Below, piece after piece: positions 3,066 through 57,551 of a DNA stretch of 64,000 nucleotides. Numbering within the stretch: the first letter of the stretch is position 1; each line of letters begins with the position of its first letter. The position numbers and the translations under genes are program-made. The notes under the pieces were generated by a model that was given only the letters and a program-made list of their open reading frames with translations, was not told where the DNA came from and searched no databases. The DNA lies in assembly GCF_032362555.1 (NCBI RefSeq), contig NC_083531.1, positions 5,084,001-5,148,000 on the forward strand. Reading direction: 5' to 3'. The stretch is from Amyelois transitella (lineage: Eukaryota; Arthropoda; Insecta; Lepidoptera; Pyralidae).

Positions 3066-4529
3066 CTGTCATTAATCAGCCAACTTGAGAAGAAAGCATA
3101 AGATAAAAAAATACAAATATTAAAACATACTTCACATTCAAACAACAAAATGCTAAAATTCTTTGAAATTGTTTGTTTAATTTACACGGTTTTCTTCCCC
3201 TGGCTTTAGTTGAGGTTGTATCCTCATCACTCTGGAGAGGAGCCCGGGGTATGCCTTTGACCAAGGACCCTAGATTAGGTGAGTCAGGTTTTACACGAAG
3301 CGACTCCCATCTGACCTCCGCAATCTGAATGTGTAGGTTTCCTCACGATGTTTTCCCTTACCGTAAACGCAACGGTTAGTATTCAAACTAATGTACATAA
3401 CTTTGAAAATAGTCATTGGTACACGGCCGAGGTAAAGGTGCCGTCATAATTTTTTATATTCACGTCATGGATGTTCAGAAATGACACGTGTGGTGGCTGC
3501 GGGATGGACAATGTGGGTATGTGGACATATGCCCAACAATATGCCAGGAACAATGCAGCTCACAAATCAAATGTTATGTAGCTATTGCGCTTTATTTAAA
3601 CTTACCAAATTGTTCATCCTTTCTTACGATATAAGACCGCGAATACGCAAACATAGCTAGAACCCCAAAGCCGGGCAGAGATCCGCCCTGACCAACAGCG
3701 CCGTCCATCATAAATAGTTATCTGCAAACATATAAATATGTATGTAGTGTCAAACAACTCAGACAGGTTGTAAGTACTTATGTAGGTTGATATACACACG
3801 TACCTCCAAAACCCCTTACTCGTGAAAATTATTTGGGAGGTCACCACTTAAACACGTAACAAATGGGTTCAGTTCCTAAAACCTGATAAACGCGGTCGAG
3901 TGGGAAGGCCTAGATGAACGTACCTTGACCAAAACATGGACGTCCTGGTCCAGGCGAAAAGTCTATACCTACGAGCTTTAATTAAGAGTTATGAATGTGG
4001 GTGAAGCGAAAGAAGTGTACAGGGATCGTGGTAAGAGGAAGAAAGATGTAGTTTCTGCCTTCATCTCTGGGAAGGGGACGTGATTTTATGTACATATTCA
4101 CGTACCTACAATGCTTTATCCACTAAGCAACTTGGCACTGTTGCAGTACGCCACTCAAACCACACAGAACAACGATTAAATAATATTAGCCACTATCTTC
4201 ATCGTTCACAGGACTTTGGTTAAAATAGAATCAAATCATGACAAAAAGCTGAGAAAACACTTATATACGCACTATCTACTTCAGTAGGATTTATTTTTAG
4301 TAAATAAACATATTCTATTCTTAAGTATTAGAGTATCGGGTATCGACTTAAATTATAATAAATTTGAAGGTAGTTTTAAAAAGATATCTGTCACTGTCAC
4401 ACTTGCTGTCTGACATTGACAGACACTAAGCGACTTTGTAGATCTGTCAGACTCATTGTCATTGCCATTCTCTTGTGTCAATATCAGCTGATTGCTGATT
4501 TAGCGTTTTGTTTACGGGAGATATTTTAC

Positions 4530-10571: not shown

Positions 10572-13310
10572 CTAATGAGGTCTTCCTCTTCCTGCGGGGT
10601 CAACGGGCGCCGCGGGTGCGGCGCCTGCAGTGGTGTTCGCTGCGAAGATGGCTTCTCTCGGCGATGGCCAGTGTCTTCGGTCCGGCGGGCGAGCGTGGAG
10701 TGGCGCGATACCCACAAGGTGCGGGTGCGCCGACCTGTCCGCCCTGCCGAACATATCGCCGGCCAGACGCGAGATGAACGCGTCCAGGCCCTCCCATTTG
10801 AGGTCCCGCTGGATCGTCGCGTTCCTCACGTACCGTGGGGCCCTGACGATGTCGCGGAGACATTGGTTCTCTTGTGCACGGAGACGTCGCCTGTTTGTCT
10901 CCGCAACATAGGCGTACCACGCCTGGGCTGCGTACGTGAGGCGGGATCTGACGTAGGTTTTGTAGATCCCGAGCTTCGTCTTCAGCGGGAGGCTGGAGGA
11001 GAGGACTGGACGCAGTCTTCCCCTGGCCATCTTCACAGTTTGCACCACTGAATCGACGTGGGTCTTCAGGCGAAGTCCACGGTCGATCTTGACCCCGAGG
11101 TAGGTGACGTGTGGCTGCCACGCCACGTCCTTCCCGAAGAGCTTCAGCGGCGGCGGTGGGGCGGCGTTCTTGGAGATAATGGCCTGCGTTTTCGCCACGT
11201 TCACCGACAGTCTCCACTTCTGGAGCCAATCTGGCAGGGCGTCGAGTGCCTTTTGGAGTTTCTTGGCGGCGTGCTTCGCGTTTATGGATTTCGCGAAGTA
11301 CGCCGCGTCGTCGGCGTATAGAGCCAGCTTGGCTCCATCGGCGACCGGGATGTCGTCGGTGTACGCAGCGTAGCAGGCCGGGCTCAAGCAGCTGCCCTGG
11401 GGAACGCCAGCCCGGACGGGTTTCTCCGAAGAAACGGCGTCTTCGACCGCCACCCTGATCTTCCGCTCGTTCAGGAAGGAGGCCACAATCCTTGTTAGTC
11501 TTCTGGGAAGTTGGCTCTTCGACAGTTTGTACAGCAACCCCTCGTGCCATACTCTGTCGAAGGCCTTCTCATTGTCGAGGAGCACGACAGCCACGGTCTC
11601 CTTGCGGTTGGCAGCAGCTGAGATCTCGCCAAGGAGTCTGGCAATCTGGAGCGTCGTGGAGTGTTCGGGCCGGAACCCGAACTGCTCGGCGCGCGGCGTG
11701 ATGTGCGGCAGCATGAGGCCGAGCAGCAGTTTTTCGAACACCTTCGAGAGGGCGCTGAGAAGCGTAATGGGCCGGTAGCTCTCAGGCTTGCGGAGGTCCT
11801 TTCCCGGCTTGGGCAAGAGGATCACCCTTCCGGTCTTCCATTGTTGCGGGTAGTGGCCCGAGCGCAGAATGCCGTTGAAGAGGCGCGTCACCGCCGTGAT
11901 GAATCCCGGCGGTAGGTGGCGAAGCGCCTCGTTCGTGACGTTGTCTGCGCCCGGGGCTTTCCTGGGCTTCAGCTTCAGGATGGTCCTCTTGACCTGGCCG
12001 GGAGTGAATAATGCCGCATCCTCAAGCTCCGGTACCGGCTCCGCAAGGTACTCCCGAAGGTGCTCGATGACGCTGTCGTGGTGGGCCTGGTCCACGATCG
12101 GGTTCGGCGTGAACTGACGCTCCAGATGTTCGGCGAAGATCTCAGCCCTGTCTTCGGCCTTGAATCGTGGGAGGCCATCAGCTGCCAGCAGCGGCCGGAC
12201 GGGTTGTGGCACGCCCGACAACTGCCGGCAGAGGCGGTGAACGGAGGGGATATCACCGCCTACCGATAAGAGGTGGTTCTCCCACGATCTGGCTGCGTGC
12301 TCCTCTAGTTTGTCCTTGATTGTCTCCACCAGCTTGTTCAGGTCGGCTTTGAGTGTTGGGCAGCGAGTACTCATCCACAGCCTCCGCATTCTTCGCTTCC
12401 GCTCCAGCAGCGCGGTGAGGTGCGCCGGGAGCGGCTCGGGTTTGGCGGTGGCCGGCACGGGGGTCCGTGTGGCGTCGAGAGCGTGCTGGATGCTGCGGGT
12501 GATGGCACTCGCCGCAAGCTCGACCTCTTCGCTGGTGGAGACCCGCTTGAAGGCGACACTGGCCTTGTCGCCCACAATTTTGTCCTCGAAGTGGTCCCAT
12601 TTTATTTTGGATGTTCTCCTCGGCAGCGTGACCCTCGCCGGAAGGTCCCGGAGGATGAGAAGAACCGGCCGGTGATCTGACGGCAGGTCCGGGTAGACGT
12701 GCAGTGTTGGCAGCGCTGTCAGCCCTCTGTGGGCCACGATGTCGATGGTGTCGGAGCCTCCCAACGTGTCGGTGTGGGTGGGTTCGTCCGGCCCCAACAG
12801 CTCGAAGTCGTGGTCCACAGCGGCCTGAAGAAGGAGTCTTCCGCTTCGGTTGACCCTCGTGGAGTTCCAGGCTGTGTGCTTGGCGTTGAAGTCGCCAGCC
12901 ACAAGCGTTGGCGTGGTGGTGTTCAGCAGGGACCAAAGCTCGTTGGTGTCGAGCTTGGCCCCTGGCGGTATATACGTAGCAAACAGCCGCAGCTCGCGGC
13001 CGGCGACGCTGACGAGCACGCCGAGGGCGTACATCGTCTGGAACTCCACGTGGGGGATGGGCTGATGAATAATGTTGCGCTTCACCAACACTGCAAGTCC
13101 CCGGTAGGCGTATCCACTGACCGGGCTCTTCTCATCCTTCCGGTATGTGATGTAGTTGGGGATGCCAAACTTTTGGTCATCCCGCAGGTGGGTCTCGCTG
13201 ACGAGGAGAACATCGATGTGCTGCTCCCGGAGGAAGTTGGCCAGCAAGTGTTTCTTCCTCCGGAGCGATTCCGCGTTCCAATACACGATCCTCAGAGGCG
13301 TACCATCCAT
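10572..13310 (-). CDS. LINE ORF2: APE endonuclease + reverse transcriptase
   Basis: Intact 912-aa ORF. Residues about 1-220 form an APE-like endonuclease: VYWNAESL at the start, SETHL near 40, GDFNAKH near 138 and SDHRPVL near 209. These are the usual metal- and substrate-binding motifs for nicking target DNA. A reverse transcriptase follows, with KAPGADNVTNEAL, SYRPITLLSALSKVFEKLL, VPQGSCLSPACYA and the catalytic YADD near 664. The C-terminal part is short and I see no RNase H domain. The ATG at 13310 lies 2 nt after the ORF1 stop (TAATTATG), which suggests reinitiation by the same ribosome. No stop or frameshift is visible, so this protein may be functional even though ORF1 is broken. Length fits Jockey ORF2 proteins. 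Confidence 0.9.
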   Translation of the reverse strand: MDGTPLRIVYWNAESLRRKKHLLANFLREQHIDVLLVSETHLRDDQKFGIPNYITYRKDEKSPVSGYAYRGLAVLVKRNIIHQPIPHVEFQTMYALGVLVSVAGRELRLFATYIPPGAKLDTNELWSLLNTTTPTLVAGDFNAKHTAWNSTRVNRSGRLLLQAAVDHDFELLGPDEPTHTDTLGGSDTIDIVAHRGLTALPTLHVYPDLPSDHRPVLLILRDLPARVTLPRRTSKIKWDHFEDKIVGDKASVAFKRVSTSEEVELAASAITRSIQHALDATRTPVPATAKPEPLPAHLTALLERKRRMRRLWMSTRCPTLKADLNKLVETIKDKLEEHAARSWENHLLSVGGDIPSVHRLCRQLSGVPQPVRPLLAADGLPRFKAEDRAEIFAEHLERQFTPNPIVDQAHHDSVIEHLREYLAEPVPELEDAALFTPGQVKRTILKLKPRKAPGADNVTNEALRHLPPGFITAVTRLFNGILRSGHYPQQWKTGRVILLPKPGKDLRKPESYRPITLLSALSKVFEKLLLGLMLPHITPRAEQFGFRPEHSTTLQIARLLGEISAAANRKETVAVVLLDNEKAFDRVWHEGLLYKLSKSQLPRRLTRIVASFLNERKIRVAVEDAVSSEKPVRAGVPQGSCLSPACYAAYTDDIPVADGAKLALYADDAAYFAKSINAKHAAKKLQKALDALPDWLQKWRLSVNVAKTQAIISKNAAPPPPLKLFGKDVAWQPHVTYLGVKIDRGLRLKTHVDSVVQTVKMARGRLRPVLSSSLPLKTKLGIYKTYVRSRLTYAAQAWYAYVAETNRRRLRAQENQCLRDIVRAPRYVRNATIQRDLKWEGLDAFISRLAGDMFGRADRSAHPHLVGIAPLHARPPDRRHWPSPREAIFAANTTAGAAPAAPVDPAGRGRPH

Positions 13311-13312
13311 AA

Positions 13313-14932
13313 TTAAAGGTTAGGGGTGGGTACGCCTCTGAGGGGGGCCGCGGGAACAAGGGCGGCCAGCAGTGCCTGCATCTGCTGCACCGACTGCACC
13401 AGCGCGTAGAAATGCTCCGGTGGGATCGGCGCAGCCGAGGCAGGCGCGGGAACGGTTTGAGGTGCCGGGGGAGGCGGCACGGTTGCAGCCGCTTCTTCCT
13501 CCGCCACGGGGGCAGAGCTCACAGCGGCGGCATTCTTCTTCTTCTTCTTCTTTCTCTTCTTCTTTGGGAGCTCTGCTCCCCTGGCGGTCGGTGGGTTTGC
13601 AGGGGCCATCAGTGAGGCCTCTGCTGCTTCGGTTGTGGTGTTTTGTGGCGTGGGGGCGGTTCCGCTGCGAGCGACCGGGCCAGCCCGTCTGTTTCTGGCC
13701 TCGCGCCGCAGCACCGGGCACGAAGAATGATTTGCCGGGTGCGGTCCACCGCAGTTGGTGCAGGTGGCGGGCTGGTCCAATGGCCGCTCGCAGTCCGTGG
13801 CCTTGTGGGGCCCTCCGCAGCGCACGCAGACGGTTGCTCGGTGGCAGTTGACCGACGAGTGTCGGAACAACTGGCATCTGTGGCACTGGGCCCTGGCCAC
13901 GCCTCCACCTTCAGGGTCGGCCAATGAAGTATTTCCTTAACCGTGAATACCTCCTGGCAGTTCTGTGTTCTGGCCAGGAGGGCGAAGAAGACACATCCGG
14001 GGCGATCTCCCCTGCCCCGGATGGCTTTGATGGCTTCCACGGTGAAACCCTTCTCCTCCAGGTCTTCTTTAAGCGCGGCCTCCTCCGTGTCGGGCGGCAG
14101 CCCGCGGATGGCCACCTTCAAGGGACGGTCCGACGGCAACGAATATGAGTGCCATTGGACGTCCAGAGTGTTGATATACCTCTGGACTGTCCTATATTCG
14201 TTGCCGTCCTTTGGCGTAAAGTGCACGCCTCTTCCGCGTGCGACGGCGGCCGGCGAGCGTCCCAGCAGTCGGCTAATTTCCCTGAAATGGACCACCCAGT
14301 TGGGCAGGTGGTCCACACAGATCCTTGGGTAGCGCGGCTCCCGGGGCGCTTGTGCCGTCGGCGGGGCGGCTGAGGCGGCAGCGGCGGCGGCGGCGGCGGT
14401 GGCGGTGGCTGCGAGGGCTGCGGTTCCAGAGGAGGCCACTGCTGTGGTCGAACTGGAGGCGGCAGGTGTTGAGGTGGTGGGCGGGGCGCGAGGCACCGCT
14501 CCCCGTTGTGCCCCTTTTCTTTGGGGAAGCGGGGCTCCGGTGTTAGCCGCTACCCGGGCAAATGATACCGCGGGAGCGGCCAGCGAGGGCGGCGCGCGTT
14601 GGGCGGGCGCGTGGGCGGGCGCAAGGGCGGGGGCCTGGGCGGGCGCATGGGCGGGCGGGCGAGCAGCCGCTTGGGCGGGCGGGCAGCTGGTTGGGAGGGC
14701 GCCTGGTTGGGCGGGCGGGCGGCTGGTTGGGCGGGCGCCCGGCTGGGCGGGCGGGCGGCTGGTTGGGCGGGCGCCTGGTTAGGCGGGCGGACGTCTGCCT
14801 GGGCGGGCGCCTGGGCGGACGCGTGGGCGGGCGCGCGATTTGAGTCCGCCCCCGCTTGGGCGCGGCGCGGGTCCCGGGACTGCCATCTCGGGATCGCTGA
14901 TCTTCCGGCCGGCGGAGGCTTCATCATTGCAT

Positions 14933-30488: not shown

Positions 30489-30653
30489 ATCTCAGCTATA
30501 GTTGCAGTATATAGTTAGTTTGTTTGCCTTTACAGTTTAACCAGTGAAAAATCAAATTTGACTAAATTGTTTTTTGTAATCCGATATTTTGTCAAAAGAT
30601 TGTTGCCTAAGTCTCCCGCATTTTCGCTTTTAAACACCCACCATTAAAATATA

Positions 30654-31974
30654 CATTCAGTCAGAAAAGTATCGGGAATGGATTATTTATTTATGGTTCC
30701 AAATTCAAATTTTTGTTTTTTTTGTTGTTGTTAGATTGGCACAACTGTTTTCCATTTTGGCGCGGAGTTTGAGTTGCATCTGTTGTTTACATTAAATACA
30801 GTGCTATTTTTAGTTATATCATATCTAGTGTGTATTGCTAATTTCATAATGGATAAAAACATCGAACAAAGAGTTTGTCTTAAATTTTGCATTGCCAATG
30901 GAATATCGTGTTCGGAGTCACTGAAAATGTTACAGAAGGCTTACGGTGAATCGACTTTATCAAAAACTCGTGCTTATGAGTGGTACAAAGCGTTCAAAAG
31001 CGGTCGAGATGTGATGGAAGATTTGCCTCGCTCTGGTAGGCCATCAACGTCTGCAACTGAAGTTAACATCGCAAAAGTGAAGGAAATAGTGACTGAAAAT
31101 CCTCATTCAACTTTGAGAGAGATAGCCACCGAACTTTCTGTATCTCACGAGTCGATCCGTACCATTTTAACTAATAATTTGGGTATGAAACATGTTGCCG
31201 CTCGGCTAGTCACAAAAGACCTGAATTTTTTTCAAAAACTCAATCGCATGAGAGTCGCTGAGGACATGCTAGAACGAGTCAATTCCGACCCAACATTCAT
31301 GAAACGCATTGTTACTGGTGACGAGACGTGGGTTTACGAGTTTGACATGCAAACTAGTCAACAAGCTTCGGAGTGGCGCCTTCCAACTGAACCGAAACCG
31401 AAAAAACCACGCTAAAGTCGTTCAAAAGTCAAAGTCATGTTGACTGTTTTCTTTGACTATCGCGGTGTTGTGCACTCGGAATTCTTGCCGGAAGGTCAAA
31501 CGGTAAATAAGGAATATTATTTAAGTGTTATGCGGCGTTTAAGAGAGCAAATCCGACGAAAAAGGCCAGATTTGTGGAAAGAAATTTCTTGGATTTTGCA
31601 CCATGATAATGCACCTTCGCACAAGGCCATCATTGTGAACGAATTTTTAACCAAACACTCAACAAATACCATCGAGCAACCACCATATTCACCAGATATG
31701 GCTCCAGCCGACTTTTTTCTTTTTCCTAAACTCAAATTACCACTTCGTGGCACCCGTTTTCAATCGGTAGAAGACATAAAAGAGAATTCGCGGCGAGAAC
31801 TGACCTCAATTCCGGAAACAGCGTTTAAAAAATGTTTTGATGATTGGATTATTCGTTGGCGTAAGTGTATCGTTTCTAAAGGAGCATATTCTGAAGGTGA
31901 TAAAATAAATTTGGATGAATAACAAACAGTTTGTGTATTATTGATCTTTTCCTGCTACTTTCTTGACAGAGTAG
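30654..31974 (+). mobile_element. mariner transposon (copy 1), inactive
   Basis: 1321 bp with imperfect terminal inverted repeats (CATTCAGTCAGAAAAGTATC at left; the complement of CTACTCTGTCAAGAAAGTAG at right). Flanked by TA at 30652-30653 and 31975-31976. Size, ends and TA target are those of mariner elements. Sister copy at the same unit position at 53788-55091. Confidence 0.9.
30849..31922 (+). pseudogene. mariner transposase with a premature stop
   Basis: Cut-and-paste DDD transposase, 357 codons apart from one internal stop. The N-terminal half has paired HTH motifs (SGRDVMEDLPRSGRPSTS; TLREIATELSVSHESI) that bind the inverted repeats. The catalytic Asps are in TGDETW, HHDNAPSH and APADFF, with 34 residues between the second and third (DD34D, mariner). 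A TAA at 31413-31415 follows PKPKKPR, between the first and second catalytic Asp, in the same frame. The ATG at 30849 (MDKNIEQR) is chosen because the upstream in-frame Met at 30774 precedes a hydrophobic stretch atypical of the family. Non-functional unless readthrough occurs. Confidence 0.88.
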
Positions 31975-32073
31975 TATATTATAGTTTCATTTCCGTGTGT
32001 GGTAGCTAGCTGCAATATATAATATAGCTAAGTCTGTGACGGTCTTAAATCGCAAGTCTGGCAACACAGACTG

Positions 32074-32420
32074 GTGTGCAGCGCAGGTCGTATGAATGTT
32101 CGCTAGTCGTCGGTCGGTGGCACACTGCAGTTCGCCGTTTAATTACACAAGTTCAATACAGTCTGTCCGAATCGGTCAGACTGAGGTCGGCCGAAGTCCG
32201 CGGCACGCTGCACAAATCCTTAGGGACGCAGTGCTGGCAAAAAGAAGGACGTCCGCCGTCGCGAGTCTCTTTATATAAGGGTGAGGCGCAGGACTGACAC
32301 AGACACGACGTCACAAGTTCCTTTCTTGTATCGTCAACCCGAGCGCAGGATGCGCCTGTGATTACGGTCTAAAAGTGAGTCAGTGAGGCAATGAGTCGCA
32401 ACAGTGCCTAGTCCTGCGCC
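32074..32420. promoter_or_regulatory. D block 5: predicted bidirectional TATA promoter
   Basis: TATA core at 32270-32278. The extra upstream palindrome AGTCTGGCAACACAGACT near 32056-32073 is also found before D blocks 6-9. Confidence 0.45.
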
Positions 32421-32598
32421 GTCCTTCACATTAGCCCTTATTTGAAGATTTCAGTTTGCGGCGTCATCTCCCATTCACTTATAAAGTGTAATACATAAAT
32501 AATCAATAAATAGAGCCACAGTTTATCAATTGCCTGTATGTGCTAAGATGGACTGTGAAATTACTCTTCTGACTTAAATATTATGACACGCATCACAT

Positions 32599-33227
32599 TC
32601 ATAGGTTTTCTACACCAGTATGAGTTAAATGATGTGATAATAAAGTGCTCTTCATATTAAATCGACGTTGGCACACGTCACATTCATAAGGTTGTTCACC
32701 AGTATGAGTTCTACGGTGTTTTAATAAATTACTCTTTTCATTAAATCGACGTTGACACACGTCACATTCATAAGGTTTTTCACCAGTATGAGTTCTACGG
32801 TGATTTAATAAATTACTCTTCACATTAAATCGACGTTGACACACGTCACATTCATAAGGTTTTTCACCAGTATGGGTTCTACGGTGTTTTAATAAATTAC
32901 CCTTTTCATTAAATCGACGTTGACACACGTCACATTCATAAGGTTTTTCACCAGTATGAGTTATAACGTGTCGTTTTAAACTACTCCTCGTATTAAATCT
33001 GCGTTGACACACGTCACATTCATAAGGTTTTTCGCCAGTGTGAGTTCTGTAATGCATGTCAAAATTTGATTTAAATTTAAAACGTCTACCACAAATATCA
33101 CATTGGAGTGGACACTGACCACTCCGTGACGTTGACTCCCGTCGAGACTCGCGCTGTGTCCTGTTGGTTGTACTTCCGGCACCTGGTTGCCGTTTGTCAG
33201 CTCCCGATGTGTCAGCTGACGCAGTAT
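32599..33227 (-). CDS. C2H2 zinc-finger protein, exon 2 (unit 5, 6 fingers)
   Basis: About 213 aa with exon 1 at 34657-34669. Fingers: constant first (KFKSNFDMH), NTRSSLKRH, NEKGNLLKH, NVKSNLLNH, NEKSNLLKH and NMKSTLLSH. All C2H2 ligands are intact. Relative to unit 1 it has two extra fingers, consistent with gain or loss of whole 84-bp finger repeats. It has the exon-edge ATG (33234), but the acceptor ACAG|AT is also intact. It ends VENL through the same post-finger frameshift as unit 1. Near-identical to the unit 8 copy. Confidence 0.78.
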
Positions 33228-34656
33228 CTGTCATTAATCAGCCAACTTGAGAAGAAAGCATAAAATAAAAAAATACAAATATTAAAACATACTTCACATT
33301 CAAACAACAAAATGCTAAAATTCTTTGAAATTGTTTGTTTAATTTACACGGTTTTCTTCCCCTGGCTTTAGTCGAGGTTGCATCCTCATCACTCTGGAGA
33401 GGAGCCCGGGGTATGCCTTTGACCAAGGACCCTAGATTAGGTGAGTCAGGTTTTACACGAAGCGAGTCCCATCTGACCTCCGCAATCTGAATGTGTAGGT
33501 TTCCTCACGATGTTTTCCCTTACCGTAAACGCAACGGTTAGTATTCAAACTAATGTACATAACTTTGAAAATAGTCATTGGTACACGGCCGAGGTGAAGG
33601 TGCCATCATAATTTTCAATATTCACGTCATGGATGTTCAGAAATGACACGTGTGGTGGCTGCGGGATGGACAATGTGGGTATGTGGACATATGCCCAACA
33701 ATATGCCAGGCACAATGCAGCTCACAAATCAAATGTTTTGTGGCTATTGCACTTTATTTAAACTTACCAAATTGATCATCCTTTCTTACGATATAAGACC
33801 GCGAATACGCATAGATAGATAGATTGTCAAAGCTGGGCAGAGATCCGCCCTGACCAACAGCACCGTCCATCACATATAGTTGTCTGCAAACATATACATT
33901 ATATATATATATATATATGTATGTAGTGTCAAACAACTCGGGCAGGTTGTAAGTACTTATGTGGGTTGATATACACATCTAACTCCAAAATACTTACAAT
34001 ACAATACAAATACGCAGTCGAGTGGGAAGGCCTAAATGAACGTACCTTGACCAAAAGAGGAAATCCTGGTCCAGGCGAAAAGTCTATATCTACGAGCTTT
34101 CATTAAGAGTTATGAATGTGGGTGAAGCGAAAGAAGTGTACAGAGATCGTGGTAAGAGGAAGAAAGATGTAGTTTCTGCCTTCCTCTCTGGGAAAGAGAC
34201 GTGATTTTATGTATTTACGTACCTACTACGCTTTATCCACCAAGCAACTTGGTACTGTTGCAGTACGCCACTCAAACCACACAGAATAGCGATTATTTAT
34301 TATTAACCACTATCTTCATCGTTCATCAGACTGGCTAAGATTTGGTTGGTTAAAATAGATTCAAATCAAAACACTTATATACGCACTATCTACTTCAGTA
34401 GGTTTTAGTTTTAGTAACATATTCTATTCTACGGTATTAGAATATCGGGTATCGACTTAAATAATAACAATTTTGAAGGTAGATTTAAAAAGATATCTGT
34501 CACTGTCACACTTGCTGTCTGACATTGACAGACACTAAGGGCACGGCAGCGTGTCCCCGACTTTGTAGATCTGTCAGACTCATTGTCATTGCCATTCTCC
34601 TGTGTCAATATCAGCTGCTTGCTGATTTAGCGTTTTGTTTACGGCAGATATTTTAC

Positions 34657-44138: not shown

Positions 44139-45798
44139 CTGTGAAAAATCAGCCGACTTGAGAAGAAAGCATAGGTTAAACATAAATAAATACAAATATT
44201 AAAACATACTTCACAATCAAACAACAAAATGCTAAAATTCTTTGAAATTGTTTGTTTAATTTAGACGGTTTTCCTCCCCTGGCTTAAGTCGAGGTTGCAT
44301 CCTCATCACTCCAGAGAGGGGCCCGGGGTATGCCTTTGACCAAGGACCCTAGATTAGGTGAGTCAGGTTTTTACACGAAGCGACTCCCATCTGACCTCCG
44401 CAATCTGAATATGTAGGTTTCCTCACGATGTTTTCCCTTACCGTAAACGCATCGGCTAGTATTTAAACTAATGTACATAACTTTGACAATAGTCATTGGT
44501 ACACGGCCGAGGTAAAGGTGCCGTCATAATATTCAATATTCACGTCATGGATGTTCAGAAATGACACGTGTGGTGGCTGCGGGATGGACAATGTGGGTAT
44601 GTGGACATATGCCCAACAATATGCCAGGAACAATGCAGCTCACAAATCAAATGTTATGTGGCTATTGCACTTTATTTAAACTTACCAAATTGTTCATCCT
44701 TTCTTATGATATAAGACCGCGAATACGCAAACATAGCTAGAACCCCAAAGCCGGGCAGAGATCCGCCCTGACCAACAGCGCCGTCCATCATAAATAGTTA
44801 TCTGCAAACATATAAATTATATAAATATGTATGTAGTGTCAAACAACTCAGACAGGTTGTAAGTACTTATATAGGTTGAAATATACACACCTACCTCCAA
44901 AACCCCTTAATCGTGAAAATTAGTTGGGAGGTCACCACTTAAACACGTAACAAATGTGTTCAGTTCCTAAAACCTGATAAACGCGGGCGAGTGCGGAGGC
45001 CTAGATGAACGTACCTTGACCAAAACAGGAAGTCCTGGTCCCGACGAAAAGTCTATAACTACGAGCTTTAATTAAGAGTTAGGAATGTGGGTAAAGCGAA
45101 AAAAGTGTACAGGGATCATGGTAAGAGGAAGAAAGATGTAGTTTTTGCCTCCTCTGTGGGAAAGAGATGTGATTTTATGTATTTACGTACCTACTACGCT
45201 TTATCCACTAAACAACTTGGTACTGTTGCAGTACGCCTCAGAAACCACACAGAATAACGATTAATTAATATTAGCCACTATCTTTATCGTTAACTTCGTC
45301 CACACGTTCGTTGGGAAAACTGTTACCTGACTGTGTAATTAGATATTTAGTAGTAAGAATTTAATTTAGTTGGTCAAAATAGAATAAAATCATGACAAAA
45401 AGCCGAGAAAATACTTATATACGCACTATCTACTTCAGTAGGGTTTAGTTTTAGTAAATAAAAATATTCTTTTCTAAAGTATTAGAGTATAGGGTATCGA
45501 CTTAAATTTTAATAATTTTGAAGGTAGTTTTAAGATATCTGTCACTGTCACACTTGCTGTCTGACATTGACAGACACTAAGGGCACGGCATCGTGTCCCC
45601 GACTTTGTAGATCTGTCAGACTCATTGTCATTGCCATTCTCTTGTGTCAATATCAGCTGATTGCTGATTTTGTGTTCAGTTTACGGCAGATATTTAACTA
45701 TATTAACTTTTATCAAATTCGATAATAAGTTTTCTTTATTTAAGTACACACGGCGAAAAAATGGTAATTGGGTGGATTTCAACAAGTGATTTTTTTTT

Positions 45799-46060
45799 GT
45801 CATTTCGGTGAGATTTTTTATTTCAATGCTATTCTACAATTTTTTGATAATAAATAAAACTTTAAGCTATTTTATAACATATGCGTGAATGGTCATCAAA
45901 TATCATCGAAACTTGCAGATATATTTAAGGTTGAATTTTTAAGTGTCCACTGAAATGATAAGTATCCATCGAAATGATAATAAAAGCCCACCGAAATGAA
46001 AATTACCCACCGAAATGATTTAAATGTGCACCGAAATGAAATAAACCCACTGAAATGATA
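45799..46060. repeat. left subterminal CACCGAAATGA repeats
   Basis: Six direct copies of C(C/A)(A/T)(C/T)(C/T)GAAATGA-like motifs at about 45948, 45967, 45988, 46007, 46029 and 46047, plus one inverted copy (CATTTCGGTG, 45801-45810). Probable transposase-binding sites (inference). Confidence 0.7.
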
Positions 46061-46377
46061 CGGCTAAGAACAACCGTGCTGCGGAACAAGGGTTCCGTAA
46101 TATTTTAAGTTCGGTTTTCATATTCTTAGTTAAAGAAGATACAGTTAGTTGTTGTTATAATATCTTTCTTTGAGACTATTCTCATTGTTTCTTTACTCAA
46201 ATAACTGTGACTAATTTTAGGCACGTTTAATTTTTTTTAAAGTCATTTTAGTAACTGTGATATTTTTAGTAAATAATGAAGTTTGCTATAATTAAGCTTC
46301 TTAGATTTTATTACACACTTAGTTACCTACAGCTCGACCATAATAAAAGCGTGCTAATATTTATTTTACTACCTGCA

Positions 46378-46758
46378 TTAAGGCGTTGTGGCAAGCAAAA
46401 CTAGTGCTGCCAATGAAAAAAAATAATATGTCAGTAACTAGTACGAATATCAAAAATGTACAACACCCGAACACTAAAGTATTATAATCATATTATGCAT
46501 TGTTTTTTAGAAATAATAAGAAAACTTTGTTTCATTGTGTTGAGAAACAAAAAGCATTATTGCTAAAAGCGGCCGTTTTTTCCTTTGATGAAAACTGTTG
46601 CTCAAAACAATGACATACAGTTTTCCTAGTATGTTTAAAAAATAAAGCGCGTATTAATTTAGTATTCGGGTGTTGTACATTTTTGATATTCATTACTTAC
46701 TGAGATATGATTTTTTTTTTCATTGGTGGCGCTAGTTTTGCTTGCCACAGCGCCTTAA
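46378..46758. mobile_element. nested MITE flanked by TTAA
   Basis: Inverted arms of about 100 bp: GGCGTTGTGGCAAGCAAAAC at left, complement of GTTTTGCTTGCCACAGCGCC at right, with TTAA at both edges (46378-46381, 46755-46758). No ORF. TTAA targets suit piggyBac-type MITEs. Confidence 0.75.
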
Positions 46759-47634
46759 CACCAAAATATGGAGCAGGTAAAGAACTTCGTTTAGGTATAA
46801 AAATGTTATAAGAAGTTAAAATTAAAAAAAAAACAGAAAGGTTACACACTGGAGAGTTCATCGAATTAACAGTTTCTTTACGGAATAAGGCAGATACGTA
46901 CCCTCGTGACTCTTAACCCGGTCAAATGTAGCAAGTAGTTAAAGGTGATAAGTGGGATTTAGTATTTTATAAGTAAAACTTCTATATTAAACAAATCAAC
47001 TCTTATATTTTTTGATAAGAAACATTATAAAACATCTAATTATATCAGACGAGCTAAGTACTTTAAAACCCTTTTAATTGAGATCACGTTATCTTAAATC
47101 ACTAATAACAATACAGTATAGTATCTAATAAAAAAAAAGGAATGCAGTTTTTTTCTGCCTAAATACTTATTATTGCAAACTATAAGCCTTAATAAAACAG
47201 TATTTTTAAGTAGGTACGTAGATGTAACTTATGTCTCTAATTCGCTAATCAGCCTCTTTTTATGACTTTAAATATGTATATATTGGTTCTTAACTAGATA
47301 TATAGTAAACAAATGTTTTTTTTTTTATTATCACATGATAACACTTCTTCATTATAATTAAGTATACTATAATTCTCCATTAGTTTAACTTACTACTTAA
47401 TAGGAACATAGCAAATATCACAAGTATAAATATTCACGCACGAATGATCCAATGGGTTGCTACAAGTTTTACCACACTTTAAGAAAGATAGCCCACACAT
47501 TAGCAAGCTTGTATTTAAGTGGGAATATGCATTTGAAATCAGGCTCATTCGTGCATTAAACAAGTCGAGTACTTAAAAAAACAAAAAACGAAACCAACGA
47601 ATAACTACTTACTTTAAAAAATCAAATCAACAGT

Positions 47635-50568
47635 TCAATCAAAAATATTCAAATCTGAAGTCGATGAAGACGATGATAATCTTTTTACTGGTCTCCTCTT
47701 GACTTTAGTTTTGATTTCCTGTTCACTGTCACTGTTACTTTGTTCATACTTTTCAAGTAATGCAGTATCAGGGTTATCAAAAAATGAACACGAGGGAGTG
47801 TTGAATTCAATGAAGTTTTCATACTTTTCCAGTAGTGATTTGGGGATCATTGATGATTCCTGTCCAGTTTCTTCTTTTTGATTATTCATTCCAACGGGAG
47901 ATTTGGATGTTGAGGGCTTAAGAACTGATATGTCAATGTTTTGGATCGAGTGTATTGATAGTTCAGTTATAATACTACTTCTTTTCTTTGGATGTTTCTT
48001 TTCTTTGGATGGTTTGGGACGTAGTACCAACTTCTCTGTTAGTTGTATTGGACGCAGCTGTGCCATATTTGTAGTATTTACAAAAGTAGGTAATTGAGTC
48101 TCAGTTAAATCATGAAAACCTAAATGTTTGCCGTGAGGGCACATTACGATTTTATTTAGGCATTCTCTTTCAACACAGGATAGATGACGAAGTGCCAAAC
48201 GGTTCCCCGACTCTTTAGACCAAACCACTTGGTGAACTTTCATAGTTCCCGCAAACGTTTTCAAGTCTTTGGGCAAAAGCCAGTCTTTTTCTGTTATTTG
48301 ATAATCTTCAACTACTTCGATTTTCACGCCTTGAACAAAAGACTTTAAGTTTTGTACTAGTACTTCAATATTGGTAATATCATGTTGATATGCGACCTGT
48401 TTATCCAGCGTTCTCTTTAACACCCCACCCACTCCGTCTGCTGCGCTTTTTCCATGGCCGCACTCGCAATAGTTCCATACTATGTGGGTCAGCATTGGAC
48501 AATAGGAAGACAGTTGTGATATTATGTATAATATCTTTTTATTCCGGTATTGGGCAGACGGAGAGTCAGAAATAATGTAAAGATTGCGGACTAGAGGCGC
48601 AGTTATTTCAATTTCACGCAAAATAGGAACAAGATGCGTCCAGACTGCTGCAGCATCATGCCTTAATGATGTACTTACAGTACAAAAAGATTGAGTTTTG
48701 CAAGTTTCATTGTTCAGTTTAAAATAAATTACAGCAGTGTGTAACGTAAATTGTTTTCTGCTGCCACCAAAATGAAGAGACTGAATTTCGGATCCATATT
48801 TAGTGGTATAATTTTCACTAAAATCTATTTGTATAATGCAGTCTTCTGTAGTCATATTTTCTTTTAAAGTCTTAAAAGCTTGGTTTTGGTTTTTATTATT
48901 AAGGCAATGTTGAAGGAATGCTTTCAGGCTGTTTTCAAATTTTTTAATCAGATCTAGAGGTTTTACCCAGTGTCTTACCTTTTCAACTTTAATAGCAGAT
49001 TTCTCTACACTATTTTTGGTGTATGTACTTTTGTTCTTCTCCCAATTCCAATACGTTACGTGTACTCCATTATCAAACTCTTGGTAATCAATGAGTCTAC
49101 TTTTACAGTTCGAGCATGTTCTTTGCAGACAATCGATGTTATCTTTACTACAACATAGGCTGTTTAAAACGTCGGATATTGTGTTTTCTTTGATCAGGCG
49201 ATTTCTTTTCATCGATTCAATCAAAAGTTTCATATTTTCATGCTTTTCACATAAACATGTGTTTCGTGCATTCACATTTGGTTGAATAATCCAGAAAGGT
49301 TTCAGTCTTGAAAATGTTGAATAGCTTATCGGTGGTTCGCCTGATTTTAGATATTTCAAGTGTAAATTTTTAAGTGTGTCTGTCATTAGTCTCTTTTGTT
49401 TTTTTAAGCCATGTCTTGATATAGTGTCATTTTTGCCAGGACAAATTGTTGAATTTTCATCGTCTTCTAAAAATGTTACAACCCTCGTGAGATATTGTTT
49501 TTTTTTCTTATCAGATTTAATAACTACTTCTGTTTTTTTTTCTACTTTTTGCGTATTTTTTTTCAAATTTATATAACTGCTTTGTAGTCTATTACACCTT
49601 TTTTTGAGCATTTCTTTTTCCCGAGAGACCTGTAATAATTTATTTTGTAATTCTGTTATTAGCTTATTTTTAGTTCTTTGATATATGCGGAATTTATCTT
49701 TAAGCGCTCGCCTTAATTCTACAGATGTAATTGACGATTCTGACACAGGGCTGTTGGGGCAAAGTGTTGACTCAATACTACTCAGATTTGATGGAGATGG
49801 TATTCGTTGTGCGCTACTTGGTAGTACACAAGGAGTGGTAGTTACTACGTTGTCGTAAATATGATGTTGAACATCGGAACTGACGGAACTATCACTGTTC
49901 ATCCGCAAGCAGCGCCGTATCATGCTGCAACGAGTAGGTCTTAGAGATGAAGATGGGTAGTCTTGTCGTGAAGTACTTGGACCAGGATTATTATTGTCTA
50001 CAAAATTTCGATGCCTTGAGAGCGGGGTTTGTCGTGGACTGCTTGTGTATATAGGACGAGAGGTTGTAGTCGCTGTATGTTGAGGTTGGATATTCGTACT
50101 GATGCTACTTCTACTGTTCAATCGTAAGCTGTGCCTCAAAGTATTGCAACGGGCAGGTCTTGCAGTCGAAGAAGGTGAATCTTGACAGGAAGTGCTGAGT
50201 CCAGGATTATTAATATCCTCACCAATTTGATTTGTTGAAGATTGTTCTGGATGATCTTGAACTGTTCCAACTAGAGAGTTTGCACGAGTAGCCGTAGGAG
50301 CCGTAGTGGCTCTTTTTTTTTTTCTTTGGTAATAAGCGGCAGCACTTATGTTGTTTCTTCTTCTTAAGTTTCTTAATTTGGTCTTGTTCATTTGATGCCT
50401 TGAAACAATTAATCCTGCTGCTTTCTTTCTTGCATATCTTTCTCTATCTTTTTTCAGAAACTCTTCGCGTGTCTCTGCATTGCTCTTTATTCTTTCTTTT
50501 CTCCTTCTTTCGTACAACCTTCTTTTTTCTAACCTTTCTTCTCTAGTCTGTGTTCTTGGCCGAGGCAT
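47635..50568 (-). CDS. transposase-like protein of the 45.8-51.7 kb element, 977 aa
   Basis: Intact ORF from ATG at 50568. N-terminus is very basic (RLYERRRKERIK, RERYARKKAAGL), perhaps DNA-binding or a nuclear signal. Residues about 95-280 are Ser/Thr-rich and likely disordered; about 285-345 look coiled-coil (LITELQNKLLQVSREKEML). A Cys/His cluster follows at about 437-505 (CLCEKH, CCSKDNIDC, CSNCKSR), likely binding zinc. The presumed catalytic core has Asp in IQIDFSENY (about 578), SDSPSAQYRN (about 667) and CGHGKSAADGVGG (about 703-712), an RNase H-fold DDE/D arrangement by analogy. The tail is Lys- and Ser-rich. It presumably cuts and joins its own ends. No stops or frameshifts are present, so it may be active. 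Family assignment is uncertain; Sola is my best guess. Confidence 0.75.
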   Translation of the reverse strand: MPRPRTQTREERLEKRRLYERRRKERIKSNAETREEFLKKDRERYARKKAAGLIVSRHQMNKTKLRNLRRRNNISAAAYYQRKKKRATTAPTATRANSLVGTVQDHPEQSSTNQIGEDINNPGLSTSCQDSPSSTARPARCNTLRHSLRLNSRSSISTNIQPQHTATTTSRPIYTSSPRQTPLSRHRNFVDNNNPGPSTSRQDYPSSSLRPTRCSMIRRCLRMNSDSSVSSDVQHHIYDNVVTTTPCVLPSSAQRIPSPSNLSSIESTLCPNSPVSESSITSVELRRALKDKFRIYQRTKNKLITELQNKLLQVSREKEMLKKRCNRLQSSYINLKKNTQKVEKKTEVVIKSDKKKKQYLTRVVTFLEDDENSTICPGKNDTISRHGLKKQKRLMTDTLKNLHLKYLKSGEPPISYSTFSRLKPFWIIQPNVNARNTCLCEKHENMKLLIESMKRNRLIKENTISDVLNSLCCSKDNIDCLQRTCSNCKSRLIDYQEFDNGVHVTYWNWEKNKSTYTKNSVEKSAIKVEKVRHWVKPLDLIKKFENSLKAFLQHCLNNKNQNQAFKTLKENMTTEDCIIQIDFSENYTTKYGSEIQSLHFGGSRKQFTLHTAVIYFKLNNETCKTQSFCTVSTSLRHDAAAVWTHLVPILREIEITAPLVRNLYIISDSPSAQYRNKKILYIISQLSSYCPMLTHIVWNYCECGHGKSAADGVGGVLKRTLDKQVAYQHDITNIEVLVQNLKSFVQGVKIEVVEDYQITEKDWLLPKDLKTFAGTMKVHQVVWSKESGNRLALRHLSCVERECLNKIVMCPHGKHLGFHDLTETQLPTFVNTTNMAQLRPIQLTEKLVLRPKPSKEKKHPKKRSSIITELSIHSIQNIDISVLKPSTSKSPVGMNNQKEETGQESSMIPKSLLEKYENFIEFNTPSCSFFDNPDTALLEKYEQSNSDSEQEIKTKVKRRPVKRLSSSSSTSDLNIFD

Positions 50569-50942
50569 CCTAAAATAAAAAGAAACACAGTTCCTTTTTA
50601 CTTACTTTCACACACAAAAACATATACACGCTGTACATACCTAGTTTCCCTAATATACCTTCAAATATACCATGCATTTACATTAGCTCTCTCGCAATGG
50701 AGAAGTTCAATGATGTTAAAAATACAACATCATAAAATTAAAATATATGTAGATCTGAACTAATCAATAAACTGATCTAATGAGTGTTTTTTTTTTTAAA
50801 ATTCATCAATATAGGTATGATTGATATATGGATTATAAAAGATTGTGTTTTTTCGCGAAACGACTACCTACCTACACATAAAAGTATCTAGCAAGGTAAG
50901 TTTAAAAAAATATCTCGAGGATCTCTAAAACTTTTAACGGAT

Positions 50943-51334
50943 TTATCATTTCGGAGATACATTTCATTCCGGTGGACTGTTATCAGTATTACAGTCCACC
51001 GAATCCGCTGAAATGATAACACTGAGATGATAAAACAGATGTCAATTTGACAATAACTCTGAAATAATGTCTGTATCAAAATTTCAAAACTATTTAAACA
51101 AAACCATACTTACAGCGTATTTAATGCACAATTTTGAAATAAATCAAATTAATGTAACACAAGTTATAACAGCTACCGAAATGAAATTTTTTTTGACCCC
51201 ATATCACAGAAATGATACACTTACTTTTTACTACTCAAGCCGGACTAATCTGAGGCGAGGAAAGGTAAGGGGGGCGCAACAACGCAATATTGACGGAGTT
51301 TTACTGCTAAAACTTAATGTCCTTTGAAATGATA
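50943..51334. repeat. right subterminal motifs and hairpin
   Basis: Degenerate copies of the GAAATGA motif in both orientations at about 50945, 50961, 51010, 51174, 51205 and 51324. Also a perfect 10-bp inverted repeat, GGTGGACTGT (50971-50980) / ACAGTCCACC (50991-51000), with a 10-bp loop. Mirrors the left cluster. Confidence 0.6.
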
Positions 51335-51979
51335 ATTTTTTTCGGGACAAAAGTTGAATGCCTGTCAAATCTATGAGAAGGAAGATAAACAAACAAAAAT
51401 AGTTTTTGTTGATAGGAAATACATTATTAAATGAAACTAAAATCGATTTCAATCCAAAAAAAATATCGTATTTGCAGGATAAGATATTTTATGAGCAAAA
51501 TTGGGTGCGGGACAGGTCACCGTCATGATAAAGTGACACTTTGTCATTTTTTTTGGCATGTAATAGATGCCGTAACTCGATGATTTTTTTTGCCATGGTA
51601 GAGGAGTACAAACTTCATTAAGGAAAAATATGAAAAATCATAAAGCACCATTCCTCACTACCGTTTTCACGTTTGCCGTGTAATTCTTGTGCTTGCGCAA
51701 TTCACCCAATTATGGATTTCAACAACGCCGTATCACTCGTCTGTAAGAACTTGTTCAATTATCTGTGAATCGAGCACAGTGGATTGAGACATTACTATTA
51801 AATAGCAATTATGTACTTTACAGGTGTACGTTAGATCTTGAAATAATACGATGGAGATTACATGTTAAAGATGTACATTTAAATGTCTGTTACTTACTTG
51901 ACAGTTTATAAAAACGTATTTAATACGTATTTAAGATAATTTGAAGTAAATTATTGCGTGTGAACGAACACATAAACGC

Positions 51980-53330: not shown

Positions 53331-53787
53331 CTCACGAAGTGGACTAGGTATCGGTCGGCAACACTAAACAGGGACATGGAGAAGAGAGAAGTTAAAACCA
53401 GATTGGAAAGATCAATATTTATTATCTGCACTTACACTTTATGAAGGTAATGGGGTCGTGAGAGTCGGCGAGCAGCCCGCTTAGAGATAACACGACCTTA
53501 CCTTAGGGCTCGTGCAGCGTGCGGCCGACTAGCGACCAGCGACTGATTTACGGTTCTGAAGGAGGTTCGCGTGATTTCATACATCGTTAACGATAGAAAT
53601 TATGTCAGATACCAATGAAACAATCTCAGCTATAGTTGCAGTAGATAGTTAGTTTGTTTGCCTTTACAGTTTAACCAGTGAAAAATCAAATTTGACTAAA
53701 TTGTTTTTTGTAATCCGATATTTTGTCAAAAGATTGTTGCCTAAGTCTCCCGCATTTTCGCTTTTAAACACCCACCATTAAAATATA

Positions 53788-55091
53788 CATTCAGTCAGAA
53801 AAGTATCGGGAATGGATTATTTATTTATGGTTCCAAATTCAAATTTTTGTTTTTTTTTGTTGTTGTTAGATTGGCACAACTGTTTTCCATTTTGGCGCGG
53901 AGTTTGAGTTGCATCTGTTGTTTACATTAAATACAGTGCTATTTTTAGTTATATCATATCTAGTGTGTATTGCTAATTTCATAATGGATAAAAACATCGA
54001 ACAAAGAGTTTGTCTTAAATTTTGCATTGCCAATGGAATATCGTGTTCGGAGTCACTGAAAATGTTACAGAAGGCTTACGGTGAATCGACTTTATCAAAA
54101 ACTCGTGCTTATGAGTGGTACAAAGCGTTCAAAAGCGGTCGAGATGTGATGGAAGATTTGCCTCGCTCTGGTAGGCCATCAACGTCTGCAACTGAAGTTA
54201 ACATCGCAAAAGTGAAGGAAATAGTGACTGAAAATCCTCATTCAACTTTGAGAGAGATAACCACCGAACTTTCTGTATCTCTCGAGTCGATCCGTACCAT
54301 TTTAACTAAAAATTTGGGTATGAAACATGTTGCCGCTCGGCTAGTCCCAAAAGACCTGAATTTTTTTCAAAAACTCAATCGCATGAGAGTCGCTGAGGAC
54401 ATGCTAGAACGAGTCAATTCCGACCCAACATTCATGAAACGCATTGTTACTGGTGACGAGACGTGGGTTTACGAGTTTGACATGCAAACTAGTCAACAAG
54501 CTTCGGAGTGGCGCCTTCCAACTGAACGCTAACGTCGTTCAAAAGTCAAAGTCATGTTGACTGTTTTCTTTAACTATCGCGATGTTGTGCACTCGGAATT
54601 CTTGCCGGAAGGTCAAACGGTAAATAAGGAATATTATTTGAGTGTTATGCGGCGTTTAAGAGAGCAAATCCGACGAAAAAGGCCAGATTTGTGGAAAGAA
54701 ATTTCTTGGATTTTGCACCATGATAATGCACCTTCGCACAAGGCCATCATTGTGAACGAATTTTTAACCAAACACTCAACAAATACCATCGAGCAACCAC
54801 CATATTCACCAGATATGGCTCCAGCCGACTTTTTTCTTTTTCCTAAACTCAAATTACCACTTCGTGGCACCCGTTTTCAATCGGTAGAAGACATAAAAGA
54901 GAATTCGCGGCGAGAACTGACCTCAATTCCGGAAACAGCGTTTAAAAAATGTTTTGATGATTGGATTATTCGTTGGCGTAAGTGTATCGTTTCTAAAGGA
55001 GCATATTTTGAAGGTGATAAAATAAATTTGGATGAATAACAAACAGTTTGTGTATTATTGATCTTTTCCTGCTACTTTCTTGACAGAGTAG
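53788..55091 (+). mobile_element. mariner transposon (copy 2), inactive
   Basis: 1304 bp, same ends, TA flanks (53786-53787, 55092-55093) and same neighbouring sequence as 30654-31974, so it arose by unit duplication rather than a second transposition. Confidence 0.9.
53984..55039 (+). pseudogene. mariner transposase with premature stop and 18-bp deletion
   Basis: Same gene as 30849-31922, with DDD motifs TGDETW, HHDNAPSH and APADFF. The TAA at the equivalent place is shared, and an 18-bp in-frame deletion just before it removes six codons of the PKPKKP linker. The HTH region differs by a few residues (TELSVSLESI). The shared stop shows it was dead before the unit was copied. Confidence 0.88.
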
Positions 55092-55190
55092 TATATTATA
55101 GTTTCATTTCCGTGTGTGGTAGCTAGCTGCAATATATAATATAGCTAAGTCTGTGACGGTCTTAAATCGCAAGTCTGGCAACACAGACTG

Positions 55191-55540
55191 GTGTGCAGCG
55201 CAGGTCGTATGAATGTTCGCTAGTCGTCGGTCGGTGGCACACTGCAGTTCGCCGTTTAATTACACAAGTTCAATACAGTCTGTCCGAATCGGTCAGACTG
55301 AGGTCGGCCGAAGTCCGCGGCACGCTGCACAAATCCTTAGGGACGCAGTGCTGGCAAAAAGAAGGACGTCCGCCATCGCGAGTCTCTTTATATAAGGGTG
55401 AGGCGCAGGACTGACACAGACACGACGTCACAAGTTCCTTTCTTGTATCGTCAACCCGAGCGCAGGATGCGCCTGTGATTACGGTCTAAAAGTGAGTCAG
55501 TGAGGCAATGAGTCGCAACAGTGCCTAGTCCTGCGCCGTC
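55191..55540. promoter_or_regulatory. D block 8: predicted bidirectional TATA promoter
   Basis: TATA core 55387-55395; nearly identical to D block 5, including the AGTCTG/CAGACT palindrome just upstream. Confidence 0.45.
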
Positions 55541-55715
55541 CTTCACATTAGCCCTTATTTGAAGATTTCAGTTTGCGGCGTCATCTCCCATTCACTTATA
55601 AAGTGTAATACATAAATAATAAATAAATAGAGCCACAGTTTATCAATTGCCTGTATGTGCTAAGATGGACTGTGAAATTACTCTTCTGACTTAAATATTA
55701 TGACACGCATCACAT

Positions 55716-56344
55716 TCATAGGTTTTCTACACCAGTATGAGTTAAATGATGTGATAATAAAGTGCTCTTCATATTAAATCGACGTTGGCACACGTCACAT
55801 TCATAAGGTTGTTCACCAGTATGAGTTCTACGGTGTTTTAATAAATTACTCTTTTCATTAAATCGACGTTGACACACGTCACATTCATAAGGTTTTTCAC
55901 CAGTATGAGTTCTACGGTGATTTAATAAATTACTCTTCACATTAAATCGACGTTGACACACGTCACATTCATAAGGTTTTTCACCAGTATGGGTTCTACG
56001 GTGTTTTAATAAATTACCCTTTTCATTAAATCGACGTTGACACACGTCACATTCATAAGGTTTTTCACCAGTATGAGTTATAACGTGTCGTTTTAAACTA
56101 CTCCTCGTATTAAATCTGCGTTGACACACGTCATATTCATAAGGTTTTTCGCCAGTGTGAGTTCTGTAATGCATGTCAAAATTTGATTTAAATTTAAAAC
56201 GTCTACCACAAATATCACATTGGAGTGGACCCTGACCACTCCGTGACGTTGACTCTCGTCGAGACTCGCGCTGTGTCCTGTTGGTTGTACTTCCGGCACC
56301 TGGTTGCCGTTTGTCAGCTCCCGATGTGTCAGCTGACGCAGTAT
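55716..56344 (-). CDS. C2H2 zinc-finger protein, exon 2 (unit 8, 6 fingers, one damaged)
   Basis: About 213 aa with exon 1 at 57552-57564; sister of the unit 5 gene. Finger order: KFKSNFDMH, NTRSSLKRH, NEKGNLLKH, NVKSNLLNH, NEKSNLLKH and NMKSTLLSH. In the second finger the first zinc-binding Cys is Tyr (PYEYDVCQRRF), so that finger should not fold normally; unit 5 keeps Cys. Ends VENL. Acceptor ACAG|AT and exon-edge ATG are both present. Presumed DNA-binding protein with altered specificity. Confidence 0.75.
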
Positions 56345-57551
56345 CTGTCATTAATCAGCCAACTTGAGAAGAAAGCATAAGATAAAAAAATACAAACATT
56401 AAAACATACTTCACATTCAAACAACAAAATGCTAAAATTCTTTGAAATTGTTTGTTTAATTTACACGGTTTTCTTCCCCTGGCTTTAGTCGAGGTTGTAT
56501 CCTCATCACTCTGGAGAGGAGCCCGGGGTATGCCTTTGACCAAGGACCCTAGATTAGGTGAGTCAGGTTTTACACGAAGCGACTCCCATCTGACCTCCGC
56601 AATCTGAATGTGTAGGTTTCCTCACGATGTTTTCCCTCACCGTAAACGCATCGGTTAGTAATCAAACTAATGTACATGACTTTGAAAATAGTCATTGGTA
56701 CACGGCCGAGTTAAAGGTGCCGTTATAATATTCAATATTCACGTCATAGATGTTCAGAAATGACACTTGTGGTGGCTGCGGGATGGACAATGTGGGTATG
56801 TGGACATATGCCCAACAATATGCCAGGAACAATGCAGCTCACAAATCAAATGTTTTGTTGCTATTGCGCTTTATTTAAACTTACCAAATTGTTCATCCTT
56901 TCTTACGATATAAGACCGCGAATACGCAAACATAGCTAGAACCCCAAAGCCGGGCAGAGATCCGCCCTGACCAACAGCACCGTCCATCACAGATAGTTAT
57001 CTGCAAGCATATACATTATATATATATATATATGTATGTAGTGTCAAACAACTCGGGCAGGTTGTAAGTACTTATGTAGGTTGATATACACACCTACCTC
57101 CAAAACCCCTTTAAAGATTAATTAATATTAGCCACTATCTTCATCGTTCGCTTCGTCCACACGTTCTTTAGGAAATCTGTTACCTGACTGTGTAATTATC
57201 AATTTAGTGGTAGGAATTTAATTTAATTGGTTAAAATAGAATAAAATCATGACAAAAAGCTGAGAAAACACTTATATACGCACTATCTACTTCAGTAGGT
57301 TTAAGTTTTAGTAAATAAACATATTCTATTGCACAGTATTAGAATATGGGGTATCGACTTTAATTATAATAATTCTGAAGGTAGTTTTAAAAAGATATCT
57401 GTCACTGTCACACTTGCTGTCTGACATTGACAGACACTAAGGGCACGGCAGCGAGTCCCCGACTTTGTAGATCTGTCAGACTCATTGTCATTGCCATTCT
57501 CCTGTGTCAATATCAGCTGATTTAGCGTTTTGTTTACGGCAGATATTTTAC

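Follow-up and report, generated by a model that had tools for sequence, protein, structure and literature searches.

The window analysed here (the whole stretch of 64,000 bp at positions 5,084,001 to 5,148,000 of contig NC_083531.1 of the lepidopteran Amyelois transitella) carries a complete DNA transposon of 5,938 bp, which lies on the minus strand at 45770–51707 and is flanked by a perfect AATT target site duplication, with the left copy at 45766–45769 and the right copy at 51708–51711. A first-pass annotation, made from the sequence letters, had already given these coordinates together with the perfect duplication, and both were found to be exact; its description of an apparently intact large DNA transposon is now strongly supported, since further copies were found with the same ends and with 4-bp duplications, and the site was also found empty. 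The element begins with GGGTGGATTTCAACAAG (45770–45786, plus strand), which is identical in all seven copies that we found in the genome, and it ends, in the inward reading of the minus strand, with GGGTGAATTGCGCAAG (51692–51707), which is present in six of six copies. The two sequences form an imperfect terminal inverted repeat (TIR) of 16-17 bp, in which 13 of the 17 aligned columns match, so that the earlier statement that the ends are "only GGGTG" has to be withdrawn; the pairing is weak when taken alone, as 201 of 20,000 pairs drawn at random from internal sequence do equally well. The element ends are secure because genome copies start at exactly 45770 (seven of them) or stop at exactly 51707 (six), the left 381 bp being found at 100% identity in seven places of the assembly and the right 308 bp at 100% in six. 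Boundaries elsewhere were considered, GGATTTCAACAA being present in both the left end and the target, and were rejected, as all seven copies start at GGGTGGATTTCAACAAGTG regardless of the flank.

The element was inserted into a tandem array, one unit of which is the host locus; the array carries C2H2 zinc-finger frames, as judged from a self-comparison of the window and from one frame tested in Pfam. Within the window (1–64000), the region of the insertion site is present in 10 array units, of which one is occupied, eight are empty and one has lost the site. The eight empty paralogues, which are uninterrupted across the insertion site, lie near 4520, 9280, 20040, 27640, 34650, 40460, 57540 and 62950, and at the position that the element takes up in the occupied unit they read TAATTATG(G/A)ATTTCAACAACGCC, exactly or nearly so. 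Small differences exist among them (the unit at 57540 has TAAAA in place of TAATT), and the paralogue that has lost the insertion site itself lies near position 80. These empty paralogous units are direct empty-site proof of the insertion.

Copies of the family in the assembly

The assembly that we searched comprises 327 Mb in 33 contigs. Of 228 candidates from the protein search 47 were scored, which makes the counts given here lower bounds. The matches listed fall in 49 places. Five are full-length frames with 100% identity, the one in the window being among them, and two more are partial copies (98-100%). Another 40 are core matches at 35-45%, and the last two are N-terminal pieces that belong to sister genes in the count already. 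Among these listed matches none has an identity between 46% and 97%. The window family therefore has at least seven copies, five of them at full length with an open reading frame (ORF), one internally deleted and one truncated. The window copy is the shortest of the full-length ones, as it is without 43 bp near the right end, and the other four measure 5,981 bp. Over about 5.98 kb, comparison among these four gives 0-2 substitutions, and their comparison with the window copy gives 4-5. The internally deleted copy (L009, on contig C23) is 3,377 bp long and resembles a non-autonomous derivative in that both ends are preserved and a separate duplication, ATCA, flanks it; the truncated seventh copy (on C20) has the left end only.

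Further copies with 4-bp duplications, which the first-pass annotation had named as a check on the element, were thus found, and all six two-ended copies have a perfect duplication (AATT, TTAT, TTCT, AGGT, ACCT and ATCA). AATT itself is accordingly not diagnostic, because the other five two-ended copies duplicated different 4-mers. The family has moved very recently, because near-identical copies occupy seven places and six of these have both ends and a 4-bp duplication. An older trace is a relic end, GGGTGAATTTCAACAAG, at L040 (G000:C24:5158413), which adjoins ATAT and is 80% identical to the left end over 76 bp; no matching right end was seen in that locus.

The encoded protein and its sister families

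As the first-pass annotation had stated, the element has one uninterrupted ORF of 977 codons (47635–50568, minus strand), which needs no intron and is open in all five full-length copies. No second large ORF was found in the element. We aligned the predicted protein with nine sister proteins, which come from 23 sister loci (L010–L032) and of which L020 and L030 represent one family. The Cys/His cluster and the motifs IDFSENY, SDSPSAQYRN and CGHGKSAADGVGG, all noticed before, are present. The cluster (C438, C440, H443, C473, C480, C485 and C488) is invariant in 10 of 10 aligned proteins, and the same is true of nine acidic residues (D370, D582, E585, E594, D668, E702, D711, D722 and D730), which include the aspartates of the three motifs. 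The order of the motifs, IDFSENY, SDxPxxQYRN and GHGKxAxDGxG, would fit strand 1, strand 4 and the last helix of an RNase H-like fold. We infer from this a putative triad D582/D668/D711, in which the first catalytic Asp would be encoded at 48823–48825 (D582, in IDFSENY), the second at 48565–48567 (D668, in SDSPSAQYRN) and the third at 48436–48438 (D711, in GHGKSAADG, with E702 as the alternative), all on the minus strand. Catalysis is most likely of the DDD type.

Five coding pairs were compared, three between sisters and two with the window gene, and in each of them nonsynonymous differences are below synonymous ones, so that the proteins are under purifying selection; pN was 0.21-0.46 and pS 0.75-0.83, the latter being saturated, so that no ratio is given.

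The 40 further core matches (35-45% identity, a lower bound for their number) represent sister elements, and the matched stretch is free of stops in 38 of them. The sister families include L010/L011, L012, L014, L015–L018, L019, L020–L026 with L029/L030, L027/L028 and L032. All nine aligned sisters share the invariant acids and the Cys/His cluster with the window protein, and a GDYVLVKF-like C-terminal stretch, recognised by eye, is present in eight of the nine (weak in L032, absent from L027) but not in the window protein. Several of the families (L010–L032) have near-identical copies, with open frames of 770-1167 aa. Both ends were checked in eight sister copies, two from each of four families, and the duplications were perfect in all eight: ATAT and ATAT in family B (L015/L016), ACCT and ATAT in family C (L020/L022), CAAA and TATT in family D (L010/L011), and ATAT and ATAT in family E (L027/L028), which gives ATAT five times and TATT, ACCT and CAAA once each. 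The ends in these four families read GGGT...ACCC, with GAGT at one end in family B.

Internal repeats, the target match and neighbouring mobile genes

The long subterminal arrays described in the first-pass annotation are real. Sites resembling CACCGAAATGA occur at the left end in an array of seven (45800–46058; one inverted, six direct) and at the right end as seven sites of mixed orientation, all with 1-2 mismatches (50946–51528). When up to two mismatches are allowed, the window contains 33 matches to CACCGAAATGA, compared with a mean of 19.1 and a maximum of 32 in 100 shuffles, and 14 of the 33 sit in the two element ends. Inside the element there is also a nested imperfect hairpin of 381 bp (46378–46758), which has TTAA at both ends and is 76% self-complementary; it looks like a TTAA-type miniature inverted-repeat transposable element (MITE) brought in from elsewhere. 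The 27-bp end of this hairpin, searched with up to three mismatches, gave 14 matches in the assembly, two in each of the seven element copies, and none outside them. A full-length DNA search likewise found the hairpin nowhere else in the assembly, with a method that skips very common words and that old, diverged hairpins would escape.

One base past the duplication, the target carries TGGATTTCAACAA (51713–51725), 13 bp that are identical, in the same orientation, to part of the left end (45773–45785). This sequence occurs 32 times in the assembly: in seven element ends, at nine places of the host array on C27 (the target included) and at 16 places elsewhere, the last number being close to the 14 of a control. 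As a rule of targeting the match was set aside, since the flanks of the other five two-ended copies, compared over 30 bp with the left end, have no more than 7 bp in common with it (this comparison covered the left end only), and a comparison of 25 sister flanks with their own ends likewise found at most 7 bp shared. A chance landing beside one of 25 such sites has a post hoc probability of about 5e-6 (7 insertions x 25 sites x 10 bp / 327 Mb). The match is additional to the true element end, and it stays unexplained. We regard it as very improbable that the window family and its sisters are a eukaryotic transposase lineage of their own, outside Sola, and that the window member can be drawn to targets resembling its own terminal repeat.

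Elsewhere in the window, two mariner genes (30735–31922 and 53870–55039) are each split into two frames by a stop, the pieces of the first having been tested in Pfam; they lie within a 98%-identical duplicated block (30489–33990 and 53623–57105) of the zinc-finger array. An open LINE frame of 915 aa (10572–13319, minus strand) has complete endonuclease and reverse transcriptase profiles. The earlier statement that every other transposase or gag gene in the window is broken therefore holds for both mariner genes, but the mobile genes as a whole are not all broken.

Movement, origin and classification

Taken together, we consider it quite probable that the element is an autonomous, recently mobile cut-and-paste DNA transposon of a new family, most likely from the Sola2 group of the Sola superfamily. 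The single ORF would then encode the transposase. This protein may use its basic N-terminus and Cys/His cluster to contact the CACCGAAATGA-like subterminal sites and the imperfect repeats at the termini; its D582, D668 and D711, as metal-binding residues of an RNase H-like core, would serve to excise the element and to join it to a target cut with a 4-bp stagger. Host repair would then make the 4-bp duplication. This kind of transposase seems to be broadly active in the genome. The near-identical copies with an open transposase offer raw material for transposition tests of Sola, and the several sister families, in which most matches are free of stops, are suited to the study of end recognition and of the origin of the 4-bp duplication. 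We know of no functional assay of a Sola element, although no specific search for one was made; the original Sola paper is reportedly that of Bao et al. from 2009.

Several features of the family suggest that it came recently from another genome: its copies are near-identical, none of intermediate age is among those listed, only one short relic end (L040) was found, and the nested hairpin is confined to the element copies. The family is therefore a candidate for recent horizontal arrival. A recent burst that started from a single surviving copy would leave a similar picture.

Several observations weigh against the assignment to an autonomous Sola2 transposon as described above. In Pfam and PHROGs the window protein and the ten aligned members had weak matches only, to models of different kinds (best E 0.0098); NCBIfam gave no match, and a sequence search of the PDB gave none at E up to 1; a profile search of the PDB returned two Hsp104-type matches (E 0.62 and 0.65), which were taken as chance. 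No Sola model was hit in any of these searches, but none of the four is a transposon library and none is known to contain Sola. A propensity calculation resolved the RNase H-like core only in part, and AlphaFold, applied to residues 540-800 alone and without an alignment, gave a pLDDT of 34.4, which is too low for a fold search. Moreover, E702 is invariant too, so that a DDE instead of a DDD triad is possible. The target duplications also fit the published Sola2 pattern AWWT incompletely: in the window family AATT and TTAT are AT-only, whereas AGGT, ACCT, TTCT and ATCA depart from it, and in the sisters ACCT and CAAA do likewise.

The alternatives have to be judged against the same evidence. 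A domesticated host gene family would explain the intronless ORF and the purifying selection across paralogues, but this explanation, which we find hardly credible, is already contradicted by the termini that the copies share, by the dispersal of near-identical copies, by the empty site and by 4-bp duplications that are perfect in 14 of 14 cases from five families. Membership of piggyBac, Kolobok or Sola3, which duplicate TTAA, is not supported, as none of the six duplications of the window family is TTAA. It is unlikely, in our judgement, that the element belongs to Academ, Ginger, Chapaev or some other known superfamily of cut-and-paste DDE/D transposons that duplicate 4 bp (or 3-4 bp). The duplication length is common to some of these three, but Pfam, searched up to E 1 with the window protein and with the ten aligned members, gave no rve integrase, which speaks against Ginger. 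Nor did it give DUF1280, a domain that one paper equates with Chapaev (PMC3985635); the presence of the model under that name in Pfam was not confirmed.

A superfamily of its own, defined by a DFSENY / SDxPxxQYRN / GHGKxAxDGxG transposase, GGGT...ACCC ends and 4-bp duplications, appears decidedly unlikely. It would account for the lack of a significant match in Pfam, NCBIfam, PHROGs and the PDB sequences, and for the failure to find a relative among prokaryotic, viral, phage and plasmid sequences: tblastn gave no match in plasmids and phages; searches of viral contigs with the protein, DNA patterns and a profile yielded no relative (the pattern loci L001 and L002 encode none); and of 137 pattern stretches in prokaryote genome contigs a profile confirmed none. 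It would also agree with the absence of a full-text literature match for six motif words in a library of 5.39 million papers, but such words seldom appear in full text. Against it, the printed description of Sola2 fits the element, and the libraries searched are of the wrong kind for transposons. The suggestion of the first-pass annotation that the element may be a new family is likely to be correct at the level of a family, but a new superfamily is not needed, and the short ends lie within the printed range of Sola.

Membership of Sola2, judged from the printed description, is probable but not proven. The earlier label "Sola-like" is borne out in the same descriptive sense by the length of the duplication, the short TIRs, the invariant D-D-D residues and the size of the protein. 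Sola elements are described in one account (PMC10741241) as 2-9 kb long in most cases, with a DDD transposase, 4-bp duplications and termini that vary greatly, the TIRs measuring 11 bp or more. The duplications are 4 bp long in six of six copies of the window family and eight of eight sister copies, and the element length of 5,938-5,981 bp and the imperfect 16-17-bp TIR agree with the printed ranges of that account. The Sola2 group of the superfamily is dealt with in a further paper as well (PMC4455052). Sola2 elements of social amoebae, as PMC3627910 describes them, have TIRs of 12, 13 or 21 bp, a transposase of 888 aa and, where printed for some families, AT-rich 4-bp duplications of the form AWWT (ATAT, AAAT, ATTT). 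The window element likewise encodes one large transposase, of 977 aa compared with the printed 888 aa, and has a candidate D-D-D triad. In contrast, those Sola2 elements carry Fanzor genes too (PMC3627910), whereas the window element has one large ORF only, and the window family is set apart by its subterminal CACCGAAATGA arrays and its nested TTAA hairpin. DNA/Sola families also occur in the moth Trichoplusia ni, and Sola_2, Sola_3 and Sola_6 are among those found earlier in baculovirus genomes (PMC8634313). These three names are family labels and not Sola groups, and the likeness to our case lies in the occurrence of Sola in a moth.

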